Origin: Myxococcales bacterium
GTDB lineage: Bacteria; Myxococcota_A; Polyangia; Polyangiales; Houyiibacteriaceae
Direction of reading: 5' to 3'
Length of the DNA stretch: 64,000 nucleotides
NCBI GenBank assembly: GCA_029863605.1
Contig: JAOTVB010000008.1
Coordinates: 1 to 64,000, forward strand
Below, one piece after another: positions 29,564 through 40,491 of the stretch. The notes below the pieces were generated by a model. That model was not told the origin of the DNA. It did no database searches and worked only from the letters and a program-made list of their open reading frames with translations. The position numbers and the translations under genes were made by a program. The first letter of the stretch is position 1. Every line of letters begins with the position of its first letter.

Positions 29564-29962
29564 GTGAGCGAGACGTACGCGGTTCTTTTGATCGACCATG
29601 GCAGCCGACGCGCCGAGGCGAATCAATTGATCGAGCGCGTTGCCGATTTGGTGCGGGCTCAAATGGACGACCATCGCATCGTCGAGGTAGCCCACATGGA
29701 GCTAGCTGAACCGACGATTGGGCATGGGTTCAGTCGATGCGTCGAACAGGGCGCAACGATCGTGGTCGCCCATCCCTTCATGCTGGCACCCGGTAGACAT
29801 GTCGTGGAGGACCTGCCGCGTTTGATCGCGGCTGCTGCGGAGTCTCACCCAGGCACCAGGTACGTCATTGCGGAGCCCTTGGGTGTGCACCGCGGCATCG
29901 CCGAAGCCGTCGTCGATCGCTGCGCCAGCGCGCTTTCCGATCGCACCCCGGAAGGCTCTTAG
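29564..29962 (+). CDS. Sirohydrochlorin chelatase (CbiX/SirB-like)
   Basis: A 132-residue single-domain chelatase. The conserved LLIDHGSR with the catalytic His lies at the N-terminus, and VAHPFMLAPGRHVVEDLP matches the second conserved region. Small CbiX/SirB proteins insert cobalt, iron or nickel into tetrapyrroles. Which metal cannot be told. A GTG start is used at 29564. The stop shares TTAG with the convergent reductase. Confidence 0.82.
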   Translation: MSETYAVLLIDHGSRRAEANQLIERVADLVRAQMDDHRIVEVAHMELAEPTIGHGFSRCVEQGATIVVAHPFMLAPGRHVVEDLPRLIAAAAESHPGTRYVIAEPLGVHRGIAEAVVDRCASALSDRTPEGS

Positions 29963-30933
29963 GGGATCAACACGATCTTGCCGCTCGTTTTGCGTGAACC
30001 GAGCGCAGCGAGTGCCGCTTGGGCCTCCTCGAGCGGGAACGTCCGGGAAACGACGGGCCGGATCTTGCCCTCCGCAAACATCGTCGAAAGTGCCAGCTGC
30101 GACCGACGGAGCACATCTGGATTTTCGTCGAAGTACAGACCCCAGTGGATACCCACGAGTGAAAAGTTCTTGAGGAGGACACGGTTCATCGCGACTGTCG
30201 GGATCCGGCCGCTCGCGAAGCCCACGATGAGGATCCTGCCTTCGAAGGCGATGCATTTGGTGGAGGCATCGAAAGTGTCCCCCCCGACAGGGTCATAGAT
30301 CACGTCCGCGCCGTGTTGATCGGTGAGCTCGTTGACGCGGGCAACCCAGTCTTCCTCGCGATAGTTCACGACGAAATCTGCACCGTTCTGCAGAGCAAGC
30401 TTGAGTTTGTCTTTCGTCCCGGCGGTACCGATGACGCGCGCGCCTAGCGCAGCACCGATCTGAACGGCCGCAAGACCGACCCCTCCCGCGGCCGCATGCA
30501 CCAACAGTGTCTCGCCTGCGCGAAGATTGGCTCGATGGACGAGCGCAACGTGGGAAGTCTGGTACACGAGACCCGCCGCCGCCGCATCTTGGAACGACAT
30601 CTCGGTTGGCATTGAAAACACGCGTTCGGCAGGTGCCGAGACCGCAGACGCGTAGCCTCCGTACGTCAAGAGGGCACTGACCCGGTCCCCCCGAGAAAAC
30701 TGCTCGACGTTTTCTCCGACATCGGTCACGACTCCTGCCACTTCCGCGCCGGGGGCAAATGGTAGCTCGGGGCGAACCTGATACTTCCCCTGCGTGATCA
30801 GGATGTCGAAGAAGTTGCAGCCGACGGCCTTTACGTCGATGCCGACTTCATCTGGTCCGACCTTGAGACTCTCCAGCTCTTCGACTTCGAGAGCATCGGG
30901 GCCACCTAGCTCACGAACGACCATCCGATACAT
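29959..30933 (-). CDS. NADPH:quinone reductase-like protein (medium-chain, zinc-free)
   Basis: A 324-residue enzyme with a GroES-like domain (VGCNFFDILITQGKYQ) and the cofactor motif HAAAGGVGLAAVQIG. It resembles quinone oxidoreductases and NADPH-dependent enoyl reductases. Zinc-binding Cys clusters are absent. Two in-frame ATGs (30933, 30924) are possible starts. Confidence 0.9.
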   Translation of the reverse strand: MYRMVVRELGGPDALEVEELESLKVGPDEVGIDVKAVGCNFFDILITQGKYQVRPELPFAPGAEVAGVVTDVGENVEQFSRGDRVSALLTYGGYASAVSAPAERVFSMPTEMSFQDAAAAGLVYQTSHVALVHRANLRAGETLLVHAAAGGVGLAAVQIGAALGARVIGTAGTKDKLKLALQNGADFVVNYREEDWVARVNELTDQHGADVIYDPVGGDTFDASTKCIAFEGRILIVGFASGRIPTVAMNRVLLKNFSLVGIHWGLYFDENPDVLRRSQLALSTMFAEGKIRPVVSRTFPLEEAQAALAALGSRKTSGKIVLIP

Positions 30934-30997
30934 GATCCGTGAGTTTGCACGTGAAAACGCTCGTCGACTAGGCAAACGCCCAAAACGCACAGCTGCC

Positions 30998-31006
30998 TGG
31001 TATAAG
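30998..31006 (+). promoter_or_regulatory. Candidate extended -10 promoter of HEAT gene
   Basis: TGGTATAAG (TG at 30998-30999, TATAAG at 31001-31006) is an extended -10 motif. No good -35 is present. A start point near 31013 would coincide with the GTG codon, giving a leaderless message. Confidence 0.35.
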
Positions 31007-31012
31007 CGGGGG

Positions 31013-32023
31013 GTGGATGGGCTCAAGCGACGGCACTCACTCCCCGCCGGGGTACTCCCTACCGAAACCCAGGGCGGCACTGAGGACGGGGGCTCACGCG
31101 TTCGAGCCAAAGCTCCGCCGGCCGAGTCCAGGCTCACGAATAGCGTGGGCCCCCCGCCACCTGCGCGTCGCGCCCGACTACTCGTCGACGAGCTCATCGC
31201 GTTGGGTCCGCACGAGATAACGTCGGTGGTGAGACGACTGCTTCCTCTCGGCAACTTCGCCCTCGAGGAGTTGGTCAAGAGCTTCCCTGGCCCCCTGTGG
31301 CGCCCTTCACTCGCGACGGACTCCCGGTTGCTTCGTCCGAACGAAATCTCTGCGTCAGCCGCCGCGATTGCAGCCTTCGCAAGTGAGGCGGTTCCGTACG
31401 TGGCCCGCCTCATGCGACACCCGAGTGGGCAGGTACGTTACTACGCTATCGTCATGTCCGGCGCGTTCGCGGAGACCGATCTCATCGGGCCCCTGGCCAG
31501 GGCCGCACTCGACGAAGACCGGGATTGTCGACGGGTCGCACTCCACATCCTGAGCACCTACCAGCACGAACCCACATATCGTGATGCGCTTGCCGGCCTT
31601 CGACGATCCGCATCCAACGAGGCTGGAGCCCTAGTGGTGCGGCGGCATGCGATCTCGGCACTTACGCAGCTGAGGGACGAAGCATCTGCATCGCTTTTCG
31701 TGGATTTGCTCGGAGATCCCGACAGGGGCATCGCCACTGCGTGTCGCGTCGGCCTACGCGTTCTAACCGCTCACGACTTTGGTTTTTCGCGGGAGCAATG
31801 GCTTCGATGGCTGGCCGAGCGGGGGCAGGAGTCTCGCATCGAATGGCTGATCGAAGGGCTCGGCGATGCGCGTACGAACATTCGCCTTCTGGCGTCGCGG
31901 GAGCTCTGGCGCTTCACCCGCTTCCTTCAGCCGCTACCAGAAACTGCGCATCGCGATGAGTTTCTAACCGCACGGCGCAACTATGAGCGGTGGTGGTCGA
32001 AGCGGAACCCACATCAGGATTGA
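31013..32023 (+). CDS. HEAT-repeat protein, paralogue of the gene at 35001-37013
   Basis: A 336-residue helical repeat protein. The shared segments RYYAI(V), DLLGDPD, the DFG-Ser/x-W-L-W-L core (HDFGFSREQWLRWL) and the ending YERWW match the C-terminal half of the GspE-N/HEAT protein encoded at 35001-37013. HEAT repeats act as protein-binding scaffolds. The start is uncertain: GTG 31013 or ATG 30932. It converges with the HAD gene one base from its stop. Confidence 0.7.
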   Translation: MDGLKRRHSLPAGVLPTETQGGTEDGGSRVRAKAPPAESRLTNSVGPPPPARRARLLVDELIALGPHEITSVVRRLLPLGNFALEELVKSFPGPLWRPSLATDSRLLRPNEISASAAAIAAFASEAVPYVARLMRHPSGQVRYYAIVMSGAFAETDLIGPLARAALDEDRDCRRVALHILSTYQHEPTYRDALAGLRRSASNEAGALVVRRHAISALTQLRDEASASLFVDLLGDPDRGIATACRVGLRVLTAHDFGFSREQWLRWLAERGQESRIEWLIEGLGDARTNIRLLASRELWRFTRFLQPLPETAHRDEFLTARRNYERWWSKRNPHQD

Positions 32024-32024
32024 C

Positions 32025-32603
32025 TCAAATCATCCCGCTCTCCGTGAGATATCGGCGCACGGAATCAAAGCCTTCGAACCTCACTGCATCGATACCGCTC
32101 TGTCTGGCCACGAGGCAGTTCGTCTGCCGATCGTCGACCAGCACGATTTGCTCGGCGGGAATAGCGAGCTCATTGAGCACACGCGCGTACGCAGCCGGAT
32201 CCGGTTTCCGTAACCCCGTGCGGCACGAGACGAACGTCCAGTCGAGGAAGCGGGATAGCCCGAGGCGCTGTTCGATCAGCTCGTACCATACGGGATAGTT
32301 CGAGAACGCGTGCATCGTTACGTCGGCTCCCCGTAGATCCGCTAGGAGCTCCTCCATGCCCGGCAGCCACCGATACGCCGTACGCACCGCATCGACGAAA
32401 CCCCGATGGTCGAAGTCGCGACGGTCCGCGAAAAAATCGTGCAGAAACTCGCTCTCGGTGCGCCGACCCACCTCGAACTCGACCCAGGCGGTCGGATGCT
32501 TCGCGGCGTACATCGCGTCGAAACTCATCCCGAAAAACTCAGGCATCTCCGAAAAGAAGGGGTCGTGGACCAGGGTCCCCATGACATCCCAAAGCAGAAC
32601 CAT
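32025..32603 (-). CDS. HAD-superfamily protein with DxM variant motif
   Basis: A 192-residue HAD-fold protein. The N-terminal motif is WDVMGTLV: the nucleophile Asp6 is present, but the second Asp (Asp+2), the usual acid/base of HAD phosphatases, is Met8. Motif II lies in AFSNYP, Lys in RTGLRKPDP, and the acidic pair in VDDRQTN. The variant may act like dehalogenase-type HADs or be a specialised phosphatase. It lies four bases after the NtrC-like gene. Confidence 0.85.
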   Translation of the reverse strand: MVLLWDVMGTLVHDPFFSEMPEFFGMSFDAMYAAKHPTAWVEFEVGRRTESEFLHDFFADRRDFDHRGFVDAVRTAYRWLPGMEELLADLRGADVTMHAFSNYPVWYELIEQRLGLSRFLDWTFVSCRTGLRKPDPAAYARVLNELAIPAEQIVLVDDRQTNCLVARQSGIDAVRFEGFDSVRRYLTESGMI

Positions 32604-32607
32604 CGCC

Positions 32608-35004
32608 TCACCCCACCGCAGAGCCGCCCACGCTATCCGACGCCTGTTTTTCGAGATCGTGACGCCGCAGCTTGTCGAGGAAGGTCGTTCGCTTGAGGCC
32701 GAGCATCCGGGCTGCCTCGCTCTTGTTACCTCCTGCACGGAAGAGTGCGCGCTCGAGCAGTCGGCGCTCGACTTCCACGTACGTGCCGCTGAGTGAGTCG
32801 TCCGCTCCCCCCGCGGGCCAACCGAGCGGCGGAAGATCCACGAGGCGGATCGACTTGCCCTGCACGCGAGAAACAGCCAACTCGACCATGAACTCCAACT
32901 CCGCGACATCACCGGGCCAGTCATGCGCCACCAGCTCGGCCATGGCCGCTTGCTCGATCCCGACGGGCTCTGAGGCCAACACCCGGCAAGCCCGATCGAT
33001 CGCGAGAAGCACCAAGGAGGGCACGTCCTCACGTCTCTCTCGCAGGGATGGGATCGCGAGGTTGGATCCCGCAAACACATCGACCAGGGTGGGGTCGAGG
33101 GCGCCGCGTCTCTCGAGCTCTTTCAACGGCGTGCGCGCGGTCGCGATGATGCGCACGTCTGCAGAGTCTGCGCTGTGCTCGACGAACACCGTTGCGAGGC
33201 GTGCCTGCGCAGCGAACGGGAGCGCGGGCAAGTCTCGGAGCAGCAGGGTTCCGCCGGTTGCTGACTGGAGCCAGCCTTTGCGGTGGCTCTCTTCTGAGCC
33301 GAACAACAGGCTCATGACGAGGTCCGGCGTCGCAGACGAACAGTCGGCCACCACGAACGGCGCCTCCCATCGCGGCCCTCGATCATGAATGAAGCGCGAT
33401 ATCGGAAGGACGGGGGCACCCGCCGTAGCGATCAGCAAGATCGGTCGGTTGCTCGGCGCGAGCTCGATTGCATGCGTTTGTATGCGCCGCATCGAAGGGC
33501 TGTAAGCTACGTGCAGCGTTTGGTCTTCAGCGAGGCCGCGACCTAGGACGGCAAATTGTCCACGAAGTTCCTCGAGCTCGCCCTCGAGTGCCATGACCCG
33601 GTCTTCGGCGTCGCGTCGAAGCGCCGAAAGCTCGTGGATGTGGGTCTGGGCGCGACGCTGTGCGAGCGCTGACGAGAGTGCCCCTCCTAGTGAGCCGCCC
33701 AAACGTGACAGCGCCGCGAGCTCGATTCGCGACAAAGGCTCCATGCGGTCTCCAATCGGCAGGAGGAGCACGGCCTCGACCTCGTCGAGGTGCGTGCACG
33801 GAACGACTACCCCGATCCCACCGCTCTCCATCGTGTCGACCAGCGCGCGAATCTCGGGCTCGCGCACCACCTCGCTCCGCAGGCTCGCGAGGTCGAGCAC
33901 TCCCGTCCCGGGGCCGCTAAATACGGCATGAACGATGGCGGGGGGTGCATTTCCAGACCGAATCGAAGCGCGGTTGCCGACCTCGAGTCGGATTCGAAGC
34001 GGCGGCTGAATGGTAAAAAGCGCCGGATATCCCTTGTCCTGCCGAAACACTCTCATCAAGGGAGCGAGCGACTCAGTCGCGATCTCCTCGAGGGTCGCAC
34101 CCGCAGCGAGCTCCTTCCGCGCGGCGTGCGCCCCCTCTACGAGTCGGCCCGAGCTCGTCCACACGAGACGGTTTCCGAGTCTCCTCGTACCGGCGAACGT
34201 GATCCACCAAAGTGCACCGATGCCCGCAGCCGCAACCCCGACTGTCCAGGCTGCATCGGAAAGTCTTGGCGCGAAAAAGAATCCCGCACCAAAGGAAACC
34301 GAACACGCCGCGAGAAACGGAACGCCGATGCGCCGCAATGACCTCCATTGCGGATCGATCCACGCCAAGTGGCCTAGCCACAGCAACGCGGCTACGGAAA
34401 ACTCGACGCAAACCCCCAATAGACCGACGAACGGTCCGAACCAAGCGTACGCTAACGCGACCCCGAGCCCGGCCAACGCAATGCCGGAGAGCGCCCCTTC
34501 GAGGGCATGGCCGCGCTCCACCAGGAAGACTTGGTGAAGTGCTCCTGTTGCGATCATCCCGGCCACGACGACGAAGCCGAGGGTCGCATCGGGCAAGAGG
34601 CCCGCCTCAGCGAAGGTCGCGGCCGCCAGAGCAGCGGTGGCGAAGGCGGCCAGAATCGCGTACCGAACGCCAGCCCTGAGCGATCTCGGCAGCACGAGAT
34701 CGAGCATGACCATGGCGGCGCTCAGCCAGGCGAGCCCATGGGTCCACATGAGCGCGCCCGAAGGCGCATCGGCGGTCGCAACTGCGAGCGCGAGCGATGC
34801 GCCCATCCACGCCAAACGCGCAGTGCCGCGCATTGGGGGGGCCGTCAGCAGCAGAACAGGCGTGAGAGATAGGGCCATCGAAAGAACTGCGATCACACCT
34901 CCATACGATGGCGTGACGTGCAACGATGCCCGGGCCGCCAGAACGTAAAGGACGGCCGCCGGACCCAAAATGGTGAAGAGTCTCGGGATTCGGCAGTCTA
35001 TCAC
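32608..35004 (-). CDS. Membrane-bound NtrC-like protein with defective AAA+ domain
   Basis: A 798-residue protein. Residues about 8-285 are about ten membrane spans; about 300-465 resembles a GAF domain; a coiled coil follows. Then comes a sigma-54-activator-like AAA+ domain, and a Fis-type helix-turn-helix at the C-terminus (GGNKSEAARMLGLKRTTFLD). In the AAA+ part the Walker A is replaced by ATAGAPVL, the Walker B reads GGTLLLRDL instead of GGTLFLDE, and GAFTGA is missing. The Arg-rich SLRERREDVP is retained. GTG 35004 overlaps the upstream stop (GTGA). It cannot be a normal sigma-54 activator. Confidence 0.8.
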   Translation of the reverse strand: MIDCRIPRLFTILGPAAVLYVLAARASLHVTPSYGGVIAVLSMALSLTPVLLLTAPPMRGTARLAWMGASLALAVATADAPSGALMWTHGLAWLSAAMVMLDLVLPRSLRAGVRYAILAAFATAALAAATFAEAGLLPDATLGFVVVAGMIATGALHQVFLVERGHALEGALSGIALAGLGVALAYAWFGPFVGLLGVCVEFSVAALLWLGHLAWIDPQWRSLRRIGVPFLAACSVSFGAGFFFAPRLSDAAWTVGVAAAGIGALWWITFAGTRRLGNRLVWTSSGRLVEGAHAARKELAAGATLEEIATESLAPLMRVFRQDKGYPALFTIQPPLRIRLEVGNRASIRSGNAPPAIVHAVFSGPGTGVLDLASLRSEVVREPEIRALVDTMESGGIGVVVPCTHLDEVEAVLLLPIGDRMEPLSRIELAALSRLGGSLGGALSSALAQRRAQTHIHELSALRRDAEDRVMALEGELEELRGQFAVLGRGLAEDQTLHVAYSPSMRRIQTHAIELAPSNRPILLIATAGAPVLPISRFIHDRGPRWEAPFVVADCSSATPDLVMSLLFGSEESHRKGWLQSATGGTLLLRDLPALPFAAQARLATVFVEHSADSADVRIIATARTPLKELERRGALDPTLVDVFAGSNLAIPSLRERREDVPSLVLLAIDRACRVLASEPVGIEQAAMAELVAHDWPGDVAELEFMVELAVSRVQGKSIRLVDLPPLGWPAGGADDSLSGTYVEVERRLLERALFRAGGNKSEAARMLGLKRTTFLDKLRRHDLEKQASDSVGGSAVG

Positions 35005-37013
35005 TGGCCGCGGGCTTGACCAGAACCATTGTGTTCCGGTGGGATGAACATGCGACTCCCCACCTGTTGCCACCAACGACGATACTTCTGCCTCGCTACT
35101 TCCCGTTCACGTTTCGGAAGGCCCGGGTGATATCCGAAATACTCTTGTGTCAGGTGCTTGAGCTCGTCGCTCGCTCGGCGACGAAGGCGCTCGTCCGAGT
35201 GCATGAGCGCGTCGATCAACCATTCCACGCGGTGGAGGGAATCGTTCTTATCGAGCCAAGCGAGCCACTTCTTCTTCGAAGTTCCGAAGTCTTGGCAGCT
35301 CAGTCGCACCAAGCTCGCGTGTGCTGCTCGAGCGACCTCGACTTGGGGACTATCGAGGAGCGACACCAAGAACTCAAACGATTCCGCATCCCGCAAGCGA
35401 CCCAGCGCTTCGATCGAGGTGATCTGGGATCGAAGCTTACGTCCGTCGCGCGCGCCGGCCCGGAGACGGTCGATCAACTCCGTGAATTCTGCTTCGCAAG
35501 CATAGAGCACGCTCAGCGCTCGGTATGCCCCGCTCCGTACCCCAGGATCCGAATCGTAAAGCCGCTGTCCAATCGGCTCAACCAGGCGCGGATCGACGAA
35601 CTCCGATGCAACTAGGGTGGCGTAGTAGCGAACGTCTGGATCCGCGTGGTCGAGTAGAGGAATCAGGTAGGCTACGGAGCGCTGTCCGAACGCGACAAAG
35701 GTCCGAGCGACCGACGAGACATCTCGGCCGGCAGGAATCCGCGCATGCGGCTCGTTGCGATCGAACCACAGCCTCCCAGGGAACTCGCGCGCAAGGGCCG
35801 GCAGAGCTCCCTCTCCTGCCGCGAGCAGCGGCAGGATCAGCATTTCGTCCTCAGGTCCGGCGACTCGCAATGCCGCGATGAGCTGCTCCACGTCTTCGCC
35901 GACGTCGACGATGACGCTCGGGAGTGATCCTTCCGAAGTGTTTGGCGGGGGTGCGGGCGCCCATCGCACCTTGCCAACGCGCTCGGCCGGCTCGCTTGGA
36001 GGCGCGGAGCTCGGCACCGTCGGGCCGAGGGTGACCACATCGTGGGTGACCGCGCTTCCATCGTTGTCACGTCGGTCATCCGAAGGCACCGACCGCCGCC
36101 GCGCTCCGCGAGGTTTGGAATCCTGAGCGGTCGGCTGGGGCGCCGGCTTCCAGCCCGAGGGTGGCTCGGCGTGCGGGTCTGAAGATCGCGCTGTTTCTGG
36201 GGGGGCCCGCCGCGAAGCGCGAGGAACTGGAGTCGGTTGCCCGAGGACCTCCGCTGGACGAGGCGGCAAGCTGTAACGAGTCGCGTCGATGAAACCGGAC
36301 GTGGCCTTCGCGCGTTTGCGCCGAGGCGAGGCGGGATCCGAATCTCGGAAGGTCCCCGCAGGCACCGACGATCCGAGTTGAGGGGGGGTCGCCGGTGGAG
36401 GCTCCGTGTCCGCGATGGCTGCTGGAGCGGGAATGGAGGAGTCGACTCGTGGATACGAGCCGGAGACCTTTTTGCGCGGTGGCAGTGAGCTACGCTTTCC
36501 CGCGCCTTCAAACGGTGCGACATAGGGAACGGCGCCCTCTTCGGCACGATCCAGCTCCGCTGCGAGCTTGCGCATGCGGGCGGTCATTTCGATGTCGTAG
36601 TGCTTTGCCAAGCCGGCCTCGACGCGGACGGAGCACACCACGCGTTGCACCGGATCGACGCCCAGCTCGAATGCGATCTCGCGCAAGATGGCATCGGGCA
36701 GTGGTCGGTCGACCGCAAGTACGATGGCATCTTCGGTGCGGGCGAGGGGGACTAGACGGTGTCGAACCGCAAACTCGCGGGGTAGCATGCGAATCGTCGC
36801 CAGCCTGACCTGCATGACCTCTGCCCGTGTCGCGGGCATGAGCCCATAAACTGCGGCGCAATAGGCGCTCATCTGATTCTCGCTGACGCACCCGAGCTCG
36901 AGCAACACCGTGTCCAAGTTGCCGCCCCGAATGACCTGCTCCTGAATCGCCTCCTGGACGCGATCGACCGCGAGGAGCTGATCGCGGACCAAGAGCGAGG
37001 CGAGCACGGACAT
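35001..37013 (-). CDS. GspE N-terminal-like domain plus HEAT-repeat protein
   Basis: A 670-residue protein. Residues 1-150 resemble the N-terminal domain of GspE/PilB ATPases (MshEN-type), with the helix pair around LLELGCVSENQ and the strand segment HRLVPLARTEDAIVLAVDRPLPD. No ATPase domain follows. Residues about 165-365 are a proline-rich, charged linker, and about 375-640 are HEAT repeats (LLDHADPDVRYYATL). The RLG pattern that binds cyclic-di-GMP in MshEN is not intact. The stop overlaps the NtrC-like gene (GTGA). The end is paralogous to 31013-32023. Confidence 0.75.
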   Translation of the reverse strand: MSVLASLLVRDQLLAVDRVQEAIQEQVIRGGNLDTVLLELGCVSENQMSAYCAAVYGLMPATRAEVMQVRLATIRMLPREFAVRHRLVPLARTEDAIVLAVDRPLPDAILREIAFELGVDPVQRVVCSVRVEAGLAKHYDIEMTARMRKLAAELDRAEEGAVPYVAPFEGAGKRSSLPPRKKVSGSYPRVDSSIPAPAAIADTEPPPATPPQLGSSVPAGTFRDSDPASPRRKRAKATSGFIDATRYSLPPRPAEVLGQPTPVPRASRRAPPETARSSDPHAEPPSGWKPAPQPTAQDSKPRGARRRSVPSDDRRDNDGSAVTHDVVTLGPTVPSSAPPSEPAERVGKVRWAPAPPPNTSEGSLPSVIVDVGEDVEQLIAALRVAGPEDEMLILPLLAAGEGALPALAREFPGRLWFDRNEPHARIPAGRDVSSVARTFVAFGQRSVAYLIPLLDHADPDVRYYATLVASEFVDPRLVEPIGQRLYDSDPGVRSGAYRALSVLYACEAEFTELIDRLRAGARDGRKLRSQITSIEALGRLRDAESFEFLVSLLDSPQVEVARAAHASLVRLSCQDFGTSKKKWLAWLDKNDSLHRVEWLIDALMHSDERLRRRASDELKHLTQEYFGYHPGLPKREREVARQKYRRWWQQVGSRMFIPPEHNGSGQARGQ

Positions 37014-37050
37014 CCCAGGCGCCTATGTTGGCGTCGTGGCGCTCTACGTG

Positions 37051-37788
37051 TCAACGAGCTTGTACGAGATGTGCCACGCGATCTCGCACCAATGCCATGG
37101 CGGCCGGAACTGCTGTTTCGACGCGTAGTACCAGGTCCCCGAGGCCGACGATGGCGAACCCGGCGCCTCGAAACGCCTCGAGCTCAGGGACGGTGAACCC
37201 CCCTTCGGGCCCGATCGCACACCATATCTGTTCAGGCAGCTCGGTCAGCGCATCGAGACGTGCCCTGGCCCGCGCAGCAAAGGCGACGCCGAGCGCGCTA
37301 TGAGGAACCTGGTCGAGCCAAGCGCGACACGGCTTGGGAGGGTGAATGACGGGCACGTCCCTTCGCTCGGACTGTGCGGCGGCTTCGCTCGCGATTCGGG
37401 TGAGGCGATCGACCCTCGACTTGGCGCGCTCCGGATCCCAACGAGCAACCGTGCGTTCCGTTTGCATGAGAGCCACTTCGTGGACTCCGAGCTCGGTGGC
37501 CATGCGAACGCAGTCGTCGACTTTCGATCCTTTCGGGACGGCGAGCATCAAGACGAGACGCGTCCCTCCGGGCTCAGCCTTGCTCGGCGGCTCGGCTTGG
37601 CAAACGACCTCGTCCTCGCCGATCGTTCGAATGCGCGCCGATGCTTCCCTGCCTCGACCGTCGAAAAGCACCACTTGGTCGCCGACCTTCAATCGTAGGA
37701 CGTGCACGTGTCGACTTGGTGCTTCAGAGAGCGAGACCATACCGCCGGCATCGGGAAGCAAGGGTGCGTAGAGCCTCCGTGCGGTCAT
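37051..37788 (-). CDS. rsmE: 16S rRNA m3U1498 methyltransferase
   Basis: RsmE methylates N3 of U1498 of 16S rRNA. The 245-residue SPOUT protein has the N-terminal PUA-like part and the C-terminal knot with IGPEGGFTVPELE and the loop LVLRVETAVPAA. The ATG at 37788 overlaps the prmA stop (ATGA). It begins downstream of prmA and precedes the GspE-N/HEAT gene by 37 bases. Confidence 0.95.
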   Translation of the reverse strand: MTARRLYAPLLPDAGGMVSLSEAPSRHVHVLRLKVGDQVVLFDGRGREASARIRTIGEDEVVCQAEPPSKAEPGGTRLVLMLAVPKGSKVDDCVRMATELGVHEVALMQTERTVARWDPERAKSRVDRLTRIASEAAAQSERRDVPVIHPPKPCRAWLDQVPHSALGVAFAARARARLDALTELPEQIWCAIGPEGGFTVPELEAFRGAGFAIVGLGDLVLRVETAVPAAMALVRDRVAHLVQAR

Positions 37789-38645
37789 GGGGCTTCGGGC
37801 TCCATCACGCAGGCACACCAAGCGTTTTCTTCGAGCCATTCGACGAGATGCATCGACGCATACGCAGCGGCGATGGCTCCGTATTCCTCTCGCAAAATGC
37901 CGCTCAAGACGAGAAAGCCGCCAGGCGCGATACACGAGCAGAGCTCGTCTACCTCGTCGACCAGGACGCGGGTCTCGATGTTGGCAAGCACAACGTCATA
38001 CACACCCTCCATCTGTGCCAGTGGCGTCGTCGACGCCTCGAAACCAACGTCCACACCGTTTAGCCTGGCGTTGCGGGATGCGACCTTCACGGCGTCCTCG
38101 TCGATGTCGACGCCCACAGCGGAGGTCGCGCCTAGCCGGAGGGCGGCAATCGAGAGGACACCGCTCCCACATCCCACGTCCAGGAGTCGTTCGCCGCCGC
38201 GGATCCGATGGTCGAGAACGCCGAGCACGAGTCGTGTCGTTTCGTGGTCACCGCTGCCAAAGGCGTTCTCTGGATCGATTGTCACGACGACTCGGCCTAC
38301 AGCGCCATCGGTGGTCTCCCAAGAAGGTTGCAGCAGAAGTCGGCGCCCGATTCGCTGTGGTCCGAAGCCTCGCCGCCACTCGACTGCCCAATCGACATCC
38401 GCAAGGTGAGAGAGCTCCGCGTCGAAATCCTCCTTTACTTCGTCGAGCGCTCGCTTTGCCACCACGTCGTTTGCGAACGACGCGACGAGCGTAACGCGCT
38501 CGTCATCGGAGCCAAGCCCGAGCGTCGTGCGGTCGCGCTCTTCGAGACCAGTCGCACCAAGCTCCCAGAGTCGGAGCTGTGCAAGCTCGAGCTCCTCTGG
38601 TGTGACGCGCATGCTCACGAACGGATGGCGTTTTGATCGCGACAT
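37785..38645 (-). CDS. prmA: Ribosomal protein L11 methyltransferase
   Basis: PrmA trimethylates ribosomal protein L11. The 286-residue product has the N-terminal substrate domain, then the SAM-binding domain with DVGCGSGVLSIAALRLGA. The DPENAFGSGDHETT segment is a family signature. The ATG at 38645 overlaps the upstream TGA (TGATG). Followed by rsmE. Confidence 0.95.
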   Translation of the reverse strand: MSRSKRHPFVSMRVTPEELELAQLRLWELGATGLEERDRTTLGLGSDDERVTLVASFANDVVAKRALDEVKEDFDAELSHLADVDWAVEWRRGFGPQRIGRRLLLQPSWETTDGAVGRVVVTIDPENAFGSGDHETTRLVLGVLDHRIRGGERLLDVGCGSGVLSIAALRLGATSAVGVDIDEDAVKVASRNARLNGVDVGFEASTTPLAQMEGVYDVVLANIETRVLVDEVDELCSCIAPGGFLVLSGILREEYGAIAAAYASMHLVEWLEENAWCACVMEPEAP

Positions 38646-38881
38646 CAGACCTCGACCATGCGCGCGGAAAGATAGATGACCAGGAACAGCACCCAAGTGA
38701 TGGGACCAAGGCGGTTCCCTCCTCGCCAAGCGACCAGCGGGGTCGTAAAGGGAATCAGAAAGCCTAGGTAACGCCAAGTCGGGGCGAGCGGACCCGTCAG
38801 CACTCGCCAAGCCATCAGCAGGTGCGTAAACAGAAGCGCGGCGCCCGAGACGGACCAAAGCGCAAGCAACCAGAGTTCCAC
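38645..38881 (-). CDS. Small membrane protein (78 residues)
   Basis: A 78-residue protein with two membrane spans and a short middle. Its stop and the prmA start share TGATG, supporting translation. It heads the prmA-rsmE run. Function is unknown; it has a charged central loop (WRGGNRLGP). Confidence 0.7.
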   Translation of the reverse strand: MELWLLALWSVSGAALLFTHLLMAWRVLTGPLAPTWRYLGFLIPFTTPLVAWRGGNRLGPITWVLFLVIYLSARMVEV

Positions 38882-39456
38882 ACCCCACTTCTAGCCCATT
38901 GTCACCAGTCTCCCAACGGAACAGCTAGACAGGAGTGGCGTGGATCGGATGGTCAGTCTGCTACCAGCCTCGGCGAAGGAGGTTCGGTTGTCGTCGAAAA
39001 CAATTCGTATCGGGTTCGTAGGCTGCGGCGTCGTTGGCACCGGGGTTGGAGATCTTGCGTTCTCATGCGGAGACGATTGAAAAGCGCTTCGGCTCAACGC
39101 CGGCAAGCTCAGCGAACTCACGATCTCGATCGAAAACATGTTCCAAAACGTCGACCGGGAGAACCACCGTACGGCCACTGCCGTGACGCTCACCCCCCAG
39201 GCTCAAGAACGGACGGTCCGAGAGGCCCTCGAACATGCCGATGCGCTCCCGAATACGCTGGCGTCCGCGCGTCTCCTTCGCATCCTGGGTTGAAAAAAAG
39301 GGCGATAGTTCGCTTTTTTCCAGCCTTAAGTGGGCTCCTCATTTGTGCTTTCCCCAACAAATTGGGCGTTCTGTGTTTACTGGGCACTTGAGTCCAGGGT
39401 AACCTCGCCGTTCTTACCCTGCCCGGGTATTTTGGACTTGGACGGAAGGATCGACC
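38882..39456. other. 575-base stretch without intact genes
   Basis: This interval holds the homoserine dehydrogenase remnant (38988-39293) and, after it, A/T-rich sequence with a weak hairpin (GCGA/TTCGC flanked by A and T runs near 39293-39328) that could act as a weak terminator in either direction. Nothing else is recognised before the lipoprotein at 39457. Confidence 0.6.
38988..39293 (+). pseudogene. Homoserine dehydrogenase remnant with internal deletion
   Basis: A TTG start follows a strong GAAGGAGG site. The first 30 codons read like the NAD-binding start of homoserine dehydrogenase (IRIGFVGCGVVGTGV). An in-frame TGA at 39078 follows. The same frame then continues with an ACT-like piece, GKLSELTISIENMFQ and AVTLTPQAQERTVREALEH, ending at TGA 39291. 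The catalytic middle, roughly 300 residues, is gone. This is inferred from family patterns; an alignment is needed. No frame shift is seen. A functional copy must lie elsewhere if the pathway is kept. Confidence 0.6.
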
Positions 39457-40491
39457 GTGCTGAACCGTGGACTGACGTTGTCGTGGATGCTTGGCGTCGC
39501 CCTGCTCGTGGCCGGGTGCGGAGACAGCTCATCCCAGATCGATGAGTGCTCTTCTGCGCTCCGAATCGACCTTGATATCGTGAGCAACATCGTGCTGGAG
39601 GTCGAACCCCCGGAGGTCGTGATCAACGAGGTCATCTGGGAGATCAGCGGCCCAATGCTCCATGAGCCCAAGACGGGGACGATCGACACCAGCGATCCGA
39701 ACGCGACCGCATCTGTCGAAGTGTACGGGCTTCTTCCGGGTAACTACACGGTCGATCTCGAAGCCACCTCCGAAGACGGGGAAACCACTTGTCGCGGCTC
39801 GGCGAGCTTTGATGTGACGGTCGGCGTAGCTACCGAGGTAGCGGTCCTCCTGCGATGCTCTCCCGGAGAGCATCTCGGCGCTGTTCGGGCCGACGGTTGG
39901 ACCAACATCTGCACTGAGCTGGCCTGGGCGGTGGTGGCACCGCTCGAGACCTCGGTCGGGAACGCGATCATCGTCAGCGCCGTGGCGGAAGACCACGAAG
40001 GTCACGGCATCGAGTTCGGCTGGACCGCCTTGAGCGGCAGCTTCTCGGACGCCTCCGCAAAGGCGACCTTCTACACATGTGAGCAAACGGGAAGCGACAC
40101 GATTACGATCACGGTGTCTGACGACGGCTTCGAGTACTGCACCGACAGCTGGAGCGTCCTGGTCGAATGCGTGGACGACGACGGCACCGGTGGTACCGGT
40201 GGCAACGGAGCCGGCGGCGCTGCGGGAGGTGGCGGTGCTGGTGGCTCTGGTGGCAACGGCTCGGGCGGCGTCGGTGGTAACGGCACAGGCGGCGTCGGTG
40301 GCAACGGCACAGGCGGCGTCGGTGGCAACGGCACAGGCGGCGTCGGTGGCAACGGCACAGGCGGCGTCGGTGGTAACGGCACAGGCGGCGTCGGTGGTAA
40401 CGGCACAGGCGGTGCGGGCGGCAGCGGCACAGGCGGCACGGGCAACAGCTCAGGCAGCCCAGAGTGCCTGGTCTCGCTGACCGTCAACTAG
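39457..40491 (+). CDS. Lipoprotein with Gly-rich 8-residue repeat tail
   Basis: A 344-residue exported protein. The lipoprotein signal ends LVAGC (Cys21). A first immunoglobulin-like or beta-rich region (about 30-130, with LLPGNYTVDLEATSEDGE) is followed by a second beta-rich region (about 150-225). The tail is made of 8-residue units GGVGGNGT, coded by 24-base repeats. The GTG start has a GGAAGGA site. It is probably a cell-surface protein; no function is known. Confidence 0.8.
   Translation: MLNRGLTLSWMLGVALLVAGCGDSSSQIDECSSALRIDLDIVSNIVLEVEPPEVVINEVIWEISGPMLHEPKTGTIDTSDPNATASVEVYGLLPGNYTVDLEATSEDGETTCRGSASFDVTVGVATEVAVLLRCSPGEHLGAVRADGWTNICTELAWAVVAPLETSVGNAIIVSAVAEDHEGHGIEFGWTALSGSFSDASAKATFYTCEQTGSDTITITVSDDGFEYCTDSWSVLVECVDDDGTGGTGGNGAGGAAGGGGAGGSGGNGSGGVGGNGTGGVGGNGTGGVGGNGTGGVGGNGTGGVGGNGTGGVGGNGTGGAGGSGTGGTGNSSGSPECLVSLTVN
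40264..40431 (+). repeat. 24-base tandem repeat in lipoprotein gene
   Basis: Six almost perfect copies of GGCGGCGTCGGTGGYAACGGCACA in a row, then one degenerate copy (GGTGCGGGCGGCAGC core). They keep the reading frame, each encoding GGVGGNGT. Only T/C changes in one position separate the copies. Such arrays can change copy number by slippage. Confidence 0.9.

Follow-up and report, generated by a model that had tools for sequence, protein, structure and literature searches.

A conserved myxobacterial gene neighbourhood joins an MshEN-HEAT protein and a putative membrane-anchored pseudo-enhancer-binding protein to prmA and rsmE

The locus and its conservation within the genus

The window analysed here is a 64,000-nucleotide stretch of contig JAOTVB010000008.1. 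Its source genome (4.2 Mb in 54 contigs) belongs to an uncultured genus of myxobacteria that includes 'Myxococcales bacterium SG8_38' (Myxococcota). Within the window, six minus-strand genes follow one another closely, among them the genes for two methyltransferases, PrmA and RsmE. From the upstream end, the features of the locus are:

38889..38919, minus strand: promoter-like block immediately 5′ of the first gene, CCGTTGGGAGACTGGTGACAATGGGCTAGAA, with a conserved GCTAGAA core
38645..38881, minus strand: small membrane protein of 78 aa, first gene of the operon, with a GTG start and two hydrophobic segments
37785..38645, minus strand: prmA, ribosomal protein L11 methyltransferase (PF06325, 1.9e-61; TIGR00406, 1.2e-50, 172.6 bits, slightly below the cut-off of 183.15)
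37051..37788, minus strand: rsmE, 16S rRNA (uracil1498-N3)-methyltransferase (PF04452, 4.1e-41; TIGR00046, 134.6 bits, cut-off 41)
35001..37013, minus strand: MshEN-linker-HEAT adaptor-like protein of 670 aa (PF05157, PF13646; AlphaFold2 model)
32608..35004, minus strand: NtrC-like gene, encoding a predicted membrane-anchored pseudo-enhancer-binding protein of 798 aa (membrane helices, GAF-like domain, long coiled coil, dead AAA+ domain with lid, Fis-type helix-turn-helix)
32025..32603, minus strand: HAD-superfamily IA hydrolase, last gene of the operon (PF00702, 6.2e-13; TIGR01509 above cut-off)
31109..32023, plus strand: convergent HEAT paralogue (PF13646, 1.4e-12; start codon uncertain, homology extending to the stop at 32023)
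29959..30933, minus strand: zinc-type alcohol dehydrogenase / quinone oxidoreductase-like gene, on the operon strand and a neighbour only, its family named by eye

The six minus-strand genes lie where the initial annotation had placed them, and the spacings measured in the window are identical to those it gave: TGATG (-1), ATGA (-4), 37 bases, GTGA (-4) and 4 bases. The HEAT paralogue does converge on the operon end, as had been claimed, with 1 base between its stop at 32023 and the HAD stop starting at 32025. The genes show the marks of a single operon (location on one strand, overlaps or short gaps, and retention in relatives), whose common transcript is predicted; a consensus scan of the operon found no internal promoters or terminators above chance. 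Only the window species and its nearest relative have the GTGA overlap between the HEAT and NtrC-like genes. Elsewhere in the genus the NtrC-like gene mostly starts 19-49 bases past the HEAT stop, with some uncertainty in the start codons. By their family matches, PrmA and RsmE are ordinary representatives of their respective families.

The order prmA, rsmE, MshEN-HEAT, NtrC-like gene, HAD gene and convergent HEAT paralogue is kept in every genome of the genus with a contig covering the site, with two exceptions: the HAD gene is cleanly lost in L141, and the locus of assembly G015 is split in two places. Wherever a contig of the genus spans the site, the HEAT paralogue converges on the operon. 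In this genus the genes thus stay together as far as contigs permit the test, as the initial annotation had required of a real unit. The dN/dS ratios of eight genes, including two flanking ones, are 0.04-0.20 in the comparison with the nearest relative and 0.07-0.21 with a more distant relative, values indicating that all genes of the locus are under purifying selection; those of the convergent HEAT paralogue are 0.09-0.13. Because these ratios are low and gene order is kept throughout the genus, the locus is more than a chance arrangement. Its most conserved product is the 78-aa membrane protein (dN/dS 0.04-0.13), which shares 97% and 88% identity with its counterparts in two genus relatives, the value for the nearest relative exceeding that of prmA; this protein has no Pfam match above cut-off and no known family. 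The source genome encodes a further HEAT protein, L002 (G000:C28:322027-322890), which is kept across the genus. It is 42% identical to the operon HEAT domain and nearer to it than the convergent paralogue is.

Upstream of the operon, the GCTAGAA core is present in 13/13 aligned genus genomes and the remaining DNA aligns poorly. The GTG start of the small membrane protein gene lies a few bases 3′ of the block. As no consensus sigma70 site scored within 29800-39500, a promoter role is one that we infer from the likeness of the block to the -10 element of a leaderless transcript. The genus upstream alignment yielded no conserved operator, its sole conserved non-coding block being this promoter-like core. 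An inverted repeat, CCRTTG-N12-CAATGG, was considered as an operator for the helix-turn-helix protein and set aside, since it is found, overlapping the promoter-like block, in some members of the genus and is absent from others; it is a weak lead, and the block occurs once in the whole genome. Divergent from the operon, positions 38940-39300 (plus strand) hold a decayed remnant that resembles, by eye, the start of a homoserine dehydrogenase. It is decayed also in the nearest relative (L135), and a longer open copy occupies the same place in L136. A lipoprotein-like open reading frame at 39457-40491 (plus strand) has at its end a tandem repeat, GGVGGNGTG, that is rich in Gly and differs in L135.

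The MshEN-HEAT and NtrC-like proteins

The product of the fourth gene has two folded parts:

36534..37013, minus strand: MshEN domain (residues 1-160), c-di-GMP motif lost
35046..35915, minus strand: HEAT solenoid (residues 367-656), PF13646, confidently modelled

In the AlphaFold2 model, residues 1-160 and 370-656 have pLDDT values of about 90-98, and residues 175-366 are disordered, forming a linker of about 200 residues between the MshEN and HEAT parts. The initial annotation had labelled the protein 'GspE-N/HEAT'; the HEAT part of that label stands, and the GspE-N part is refined to an MshEN domain (PF05157, 3.3e-10). The protein occurs class-wide, with matches in 50/59 sampled genomes (E below 1e-15). 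Outside the genus it is mostly 835-1430 residues long and contains an extra middle region, which is absent from the window genus and matches Pfam GAF in one or two members.

The fold of the MshEN domain is intact, with PF05157 in 49/49 sequences and a fold match to MshE (5htl). An MshEN receptor for c-di-GMP is expected to carry two RLGxx...LxxxLxxQ motifs with conserved R, G and Q, the residues that hold the ligand in MshE (PMC5013675). Among the same 49 sequences, motif I retains R in 0/49, G in 0/49 and Q in 47/49, and motif II retains R in 2/49, G in 0/49 and Q in 2/49. Comparable residue changes are found in Xanthomonas XpsE, in which c-di-GMP binding is lost (PMC5013675). Canonical c-di-GMP control through the MshEN domain is rejected on the basis of these lost binding residues. 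The protein resembles the N-terminus of MshE and PilB in fold and by a clear sequence match, however it lacks their ATPase and is fused instead to HEAT repeats (plus GAF in some relatives).

The NtrC-like gene encodes a more elaborate protein:

34165..35004, minus strand: hydrophobic region with about 10 predicted membrane helices (residues 1-280), from family-averaged hydropathy and model helices
33745..34047, minus strand: GAF-like sensor domain (residues about 320-420), from model strands and helices
33532..33729, minus strand: 66-residue helix, a probable dimerising coiled coil (residues 426-491), from the model
32827..33507, minus strand: degenerate AAA+ domain and lid (residues 500-726), bEBP fold, Z about 27
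32662..32775, minus strand: Fis-type helix-turn-helix (HTH; residues 744-781), PF02954 5.7e-11

Family-averaged hydropathy gives 11 peaks within residues 9-273, two of them overlapping. For the GAF-like domain, a few orthologues match Pfam GAF or GAF_2. A class-wide search with the sensor half of the protein, a single-sequence search of limited reach, found matches in that sample only within the window's own family. The AAA+ domain and lid are of the NtrC type (PF00158, PF14532 and PF25601), matching FlrC with a Z of about 27 over 230 residues.

A functional enhancer-binding protein is recognised by a Walker A motif (GxxxxGK), a Walker B motif (hhhhDE), a GAFTGA loop and a Fis-type HTH. Counts of these motifs come from an alignment of 42 sequences, which represent eight families within a single myxobacterial order. 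The Walker A lysine is replaced (by V/L/I or another residue) in 42/42 and the Walker B aspartate in 42/42; GAFTGA is found in 0/42, and the L1 loop is deleted in the alignment to ZraR. Residues of the HTH are nearly invariant in the family; the HTH pattern is kept in 34/42, with individual core residues in 35-38/42, and PF02954 is matched in 23/24. A few distant members (e.g. L101, L108 and L109) have an eroded HTH or none. The protein is therefore described here as a pseudo-enhancer-binding protein whose DNA-binding part is under constraint. Of the original 'NtrC-like' label, the fold, the predicted membrane anchor and the HTH survive, and a working AAA+ domain does not, the domain being catalytically dead by sequence. 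Residues for ATP binding, hydrolysis and sigma54 contact are lost, and the predicted DNA-binding helices, membrane anchor and coiled coil are kept. A sigma54 activator is rejected, with all three elements missing in 42/42; to judge from these residues, the pseudo-regulator cannot act as an ATP-driven activator of that kind.

Under the identical motif test, canonical enhancer-binding proteins encoded near HEAT loci score as intact: Walker A is present in them, and GAFTGA in several. Those convergent with HEAT in other Polyangia families were considered as the same gene and rejected because Walker A is kept. A canonical receiver-type NtrC gene is recurrently convergent with MshEN-HEAT in Polyangiaceae-type loci (L178, L183, L185, L187, L190, L192, L195, L197, L199 and L206); its Walker A is intact and it has no match to the GAFTGA pattern.

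The pseudo-regulator shares the AAA+ fold with lid and the Fis-type HTH with NtrC, ZraR, PspF and FlrC, and its family profile matches ZraR with 221 bits. In contrast to these proteins it lacks the Walker A lysine, the Walker B aspartate and GAFTGA, is predicted to be membrane-anchored and has a GAF-like rather than a receiver domain. NtrC proteins without GAFTGA act on sigma70 promoters in Caulobacter and Rhodobacter (PMC10274813). The Caulobacter protein requires its Walker motifs, whereas the pseudo-regulator has neither. The Caulobacter and Rhodobacter proteins and VpsR, whose AAA+ domain is among the fold matches of the pseudo-regulator, also differ in having a receiver-type domain where the latter is a predicted membrane protein. 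The NtrC proteins so described are reportedly soluble two-component regulators.

Gene associations outside the genus

Outside the genus, 39 MshEN-HEAT loci have enough upstream sequence for comparison. In 16 of these rsmE lies upstream on the same strand, mostly adjoining, and prmA is present as well in 14. Because 16/39 loci keep rsmE in this position, gene order indicates that the link between the methyltransferases and HEAT is ancient yet often broken. In several genera the HEAT and pseudo-regulator genes occur with neither prmA nor rsmE nearby.

Wherever a clear pseudo-regulator orthologue is found, MshEN-HEAT is also present, and the converse is false, among the genomes searched for both. 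The expectation that the genes would co-occur beyond the genus is borne out in part. The HEAT and pseudo-regulator genes are less than 7 kb apart in 9 of the 27 non-genus genomes that have both, four of these pairs being within about 200 bases; in the remaining 18 no single contig has both within 7 kb, in some cases perhaps because of contig ends. A naive binomial probability for this proximity is 5e-18, but with genomes that are related and contigs that end, this value shows no more than that inheritance or selection, and not chance, lies behind the proximity. The HAD gene adds four further loci: in L092, L124 and L126 it lies 3′ of a pseudo-regulator gene that is itself away from HEAT, and in L100, from a genome without a clear pseudo-regulator, it lies directly 3′ of HEAT. 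In one locus of another genus (L165), a quinone-oxidoreductase-like gene directly follows the pseudo-regulator gene. The HAD placement and the co-presence outside the genus support an association of HEAT, pseudo-regulator and HAD that would be partly independent of the methyltransferases. By gene order, the MshEN-HEAT and NtrC-like genes are conserved, constrained partners.

These patterns bear on the plainest alternative, that six proteins with unrelated functions are hitchhiking on a common promoter and that the HEAT protein and the pseudo-regulator form no physical pair. The associations do dissolve in many genera, and MshEN-HEAT is class-wide without the pseudo-regulator. In several families a ligA gene (named by eye) lies on the opposite strand between the two partners (L171, L163, L157, L168 and L119), and in some loci a kinase gene does so instead, so co-transcription of HEAT and pseudo-regulator is not obligatory. 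However, the proximity of the pair recurs in arrangements with and without intervening genes, and the HAD gene stays 3′ of the pseudo-regulator even at relocated sites. We regard hitchhiking alone as doubtful.

The initial annotation had instead raised a stress or envelope-signal response tied to translation, in which the membrane regulator and HEAT adaptor would tune prmA/rsmE or respond to the state of the ribosome. The age of the prmA-rsmE-HEAT order and the tight packing in the genus, with likely translational coupling, favour such a unit, however prmA-rsmE adjacency by itself is common in bacteria and thus needs no regulator. Elsewhere prmA is co-regulated with heat-shock genes: in Staphylococcus it belongs to the heat-shock regulon with grpE, dnaK and dnaJ (PMC2687450). 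The likeness to that set is the expression of prmA among stress-response genes; the window operon differs in having no chaperone gene, and prmA is accompanied there by a HEAT adaptor and a DNA-binding membrane protein. Across most other genera of the window's family, moreover, HEAT lies apart from prmA/rsmE and the pseudo-regulator often elsewhere, away from both and sometimes with the HAD gene. The tie to translation is not supported by this distribution, and a translation-linked unit is unlikely.

A predicted membrane regulator and its probable adaptor

The reading we favour, with confidence evenly divided, is a DNA-binding regulator that is tethered to the membrane, independent of ATP and served by a HEAT adaptor, and whose gene rides in a prmA/rsmE housekeeping operon. 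A myxobacterial regulatory pair would have become attached to the housekeeping pair. For the pseudo-regulator we infer DNA binding, partnership with the HEAT protein and action at sigma70. The protein would dimerise through its coiled coil, and its Fis-type HTH would bind DNA close to the membrane. It may act without ATP at sigma70-type promoters as a repressor, anchor or recruiter, with a signal received by way of its membrane helices or GAF-like domain. MshEN-HEAT is a probable cytosolic adaptor that would dock by protein-protein contact and not by c-di-GMP. The methyltransferases are presumed to be on the same transcript, their link to the regulator being most likely gene-order inheritance and not common function.

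It is very unlikely that the dead AAA+ domain instead joins the rings formed by intact enhancer-binding proteins and keeps these proteins inactive at the membrane. Although its fold and lid are constrained despite lost catalysis and these genomes encode many intact enhancer-binding proteins, the conserved private HTH and coiled coil suggest that the pseudo-regulator has a DNA target of its own, and in the window genus it has no linked partner regulator. An extended form of the favoured reading is quite improbable: a membrane regulator derived from a dead enhancer-binding protein, ATP-independent and worked by an MshEN-HEAT adaptor that no longer senses c-di-GMP, would be co-expressed with ribosome methyltransferases and set membrane state and ribosome modification together.

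The gene set had been called a combination not previously known, and this holds: it is a real conserved unit for which the literature searched, which included few subscription journals, gave no description. Within that same literature, no description was found of a protein joining membrane helices, a GAF-like domain, a dead AAA+ domain and a live HTH, with an MshEN-HEAT partner. The individual domains are known.

Across eight families of one order, an NtrC-type family has given up its ATP and sigma54 residues, kept its HTH and, by prediction, resides in the membrane. Its members still exceed the Pfam thresholds of the sigma54-interaction domain, so automatic annotation would name them sigma54 regulators and mislead regulon prediction, which matters in a group famous for enhancer-binding proteins. 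These pseudo-regulators would show a route from a motor-type activator to a one-component membrane regulator, and gene order provides a strong clue to the MshEN-HEAT protein, which is conserved across the class and uncharacterised.
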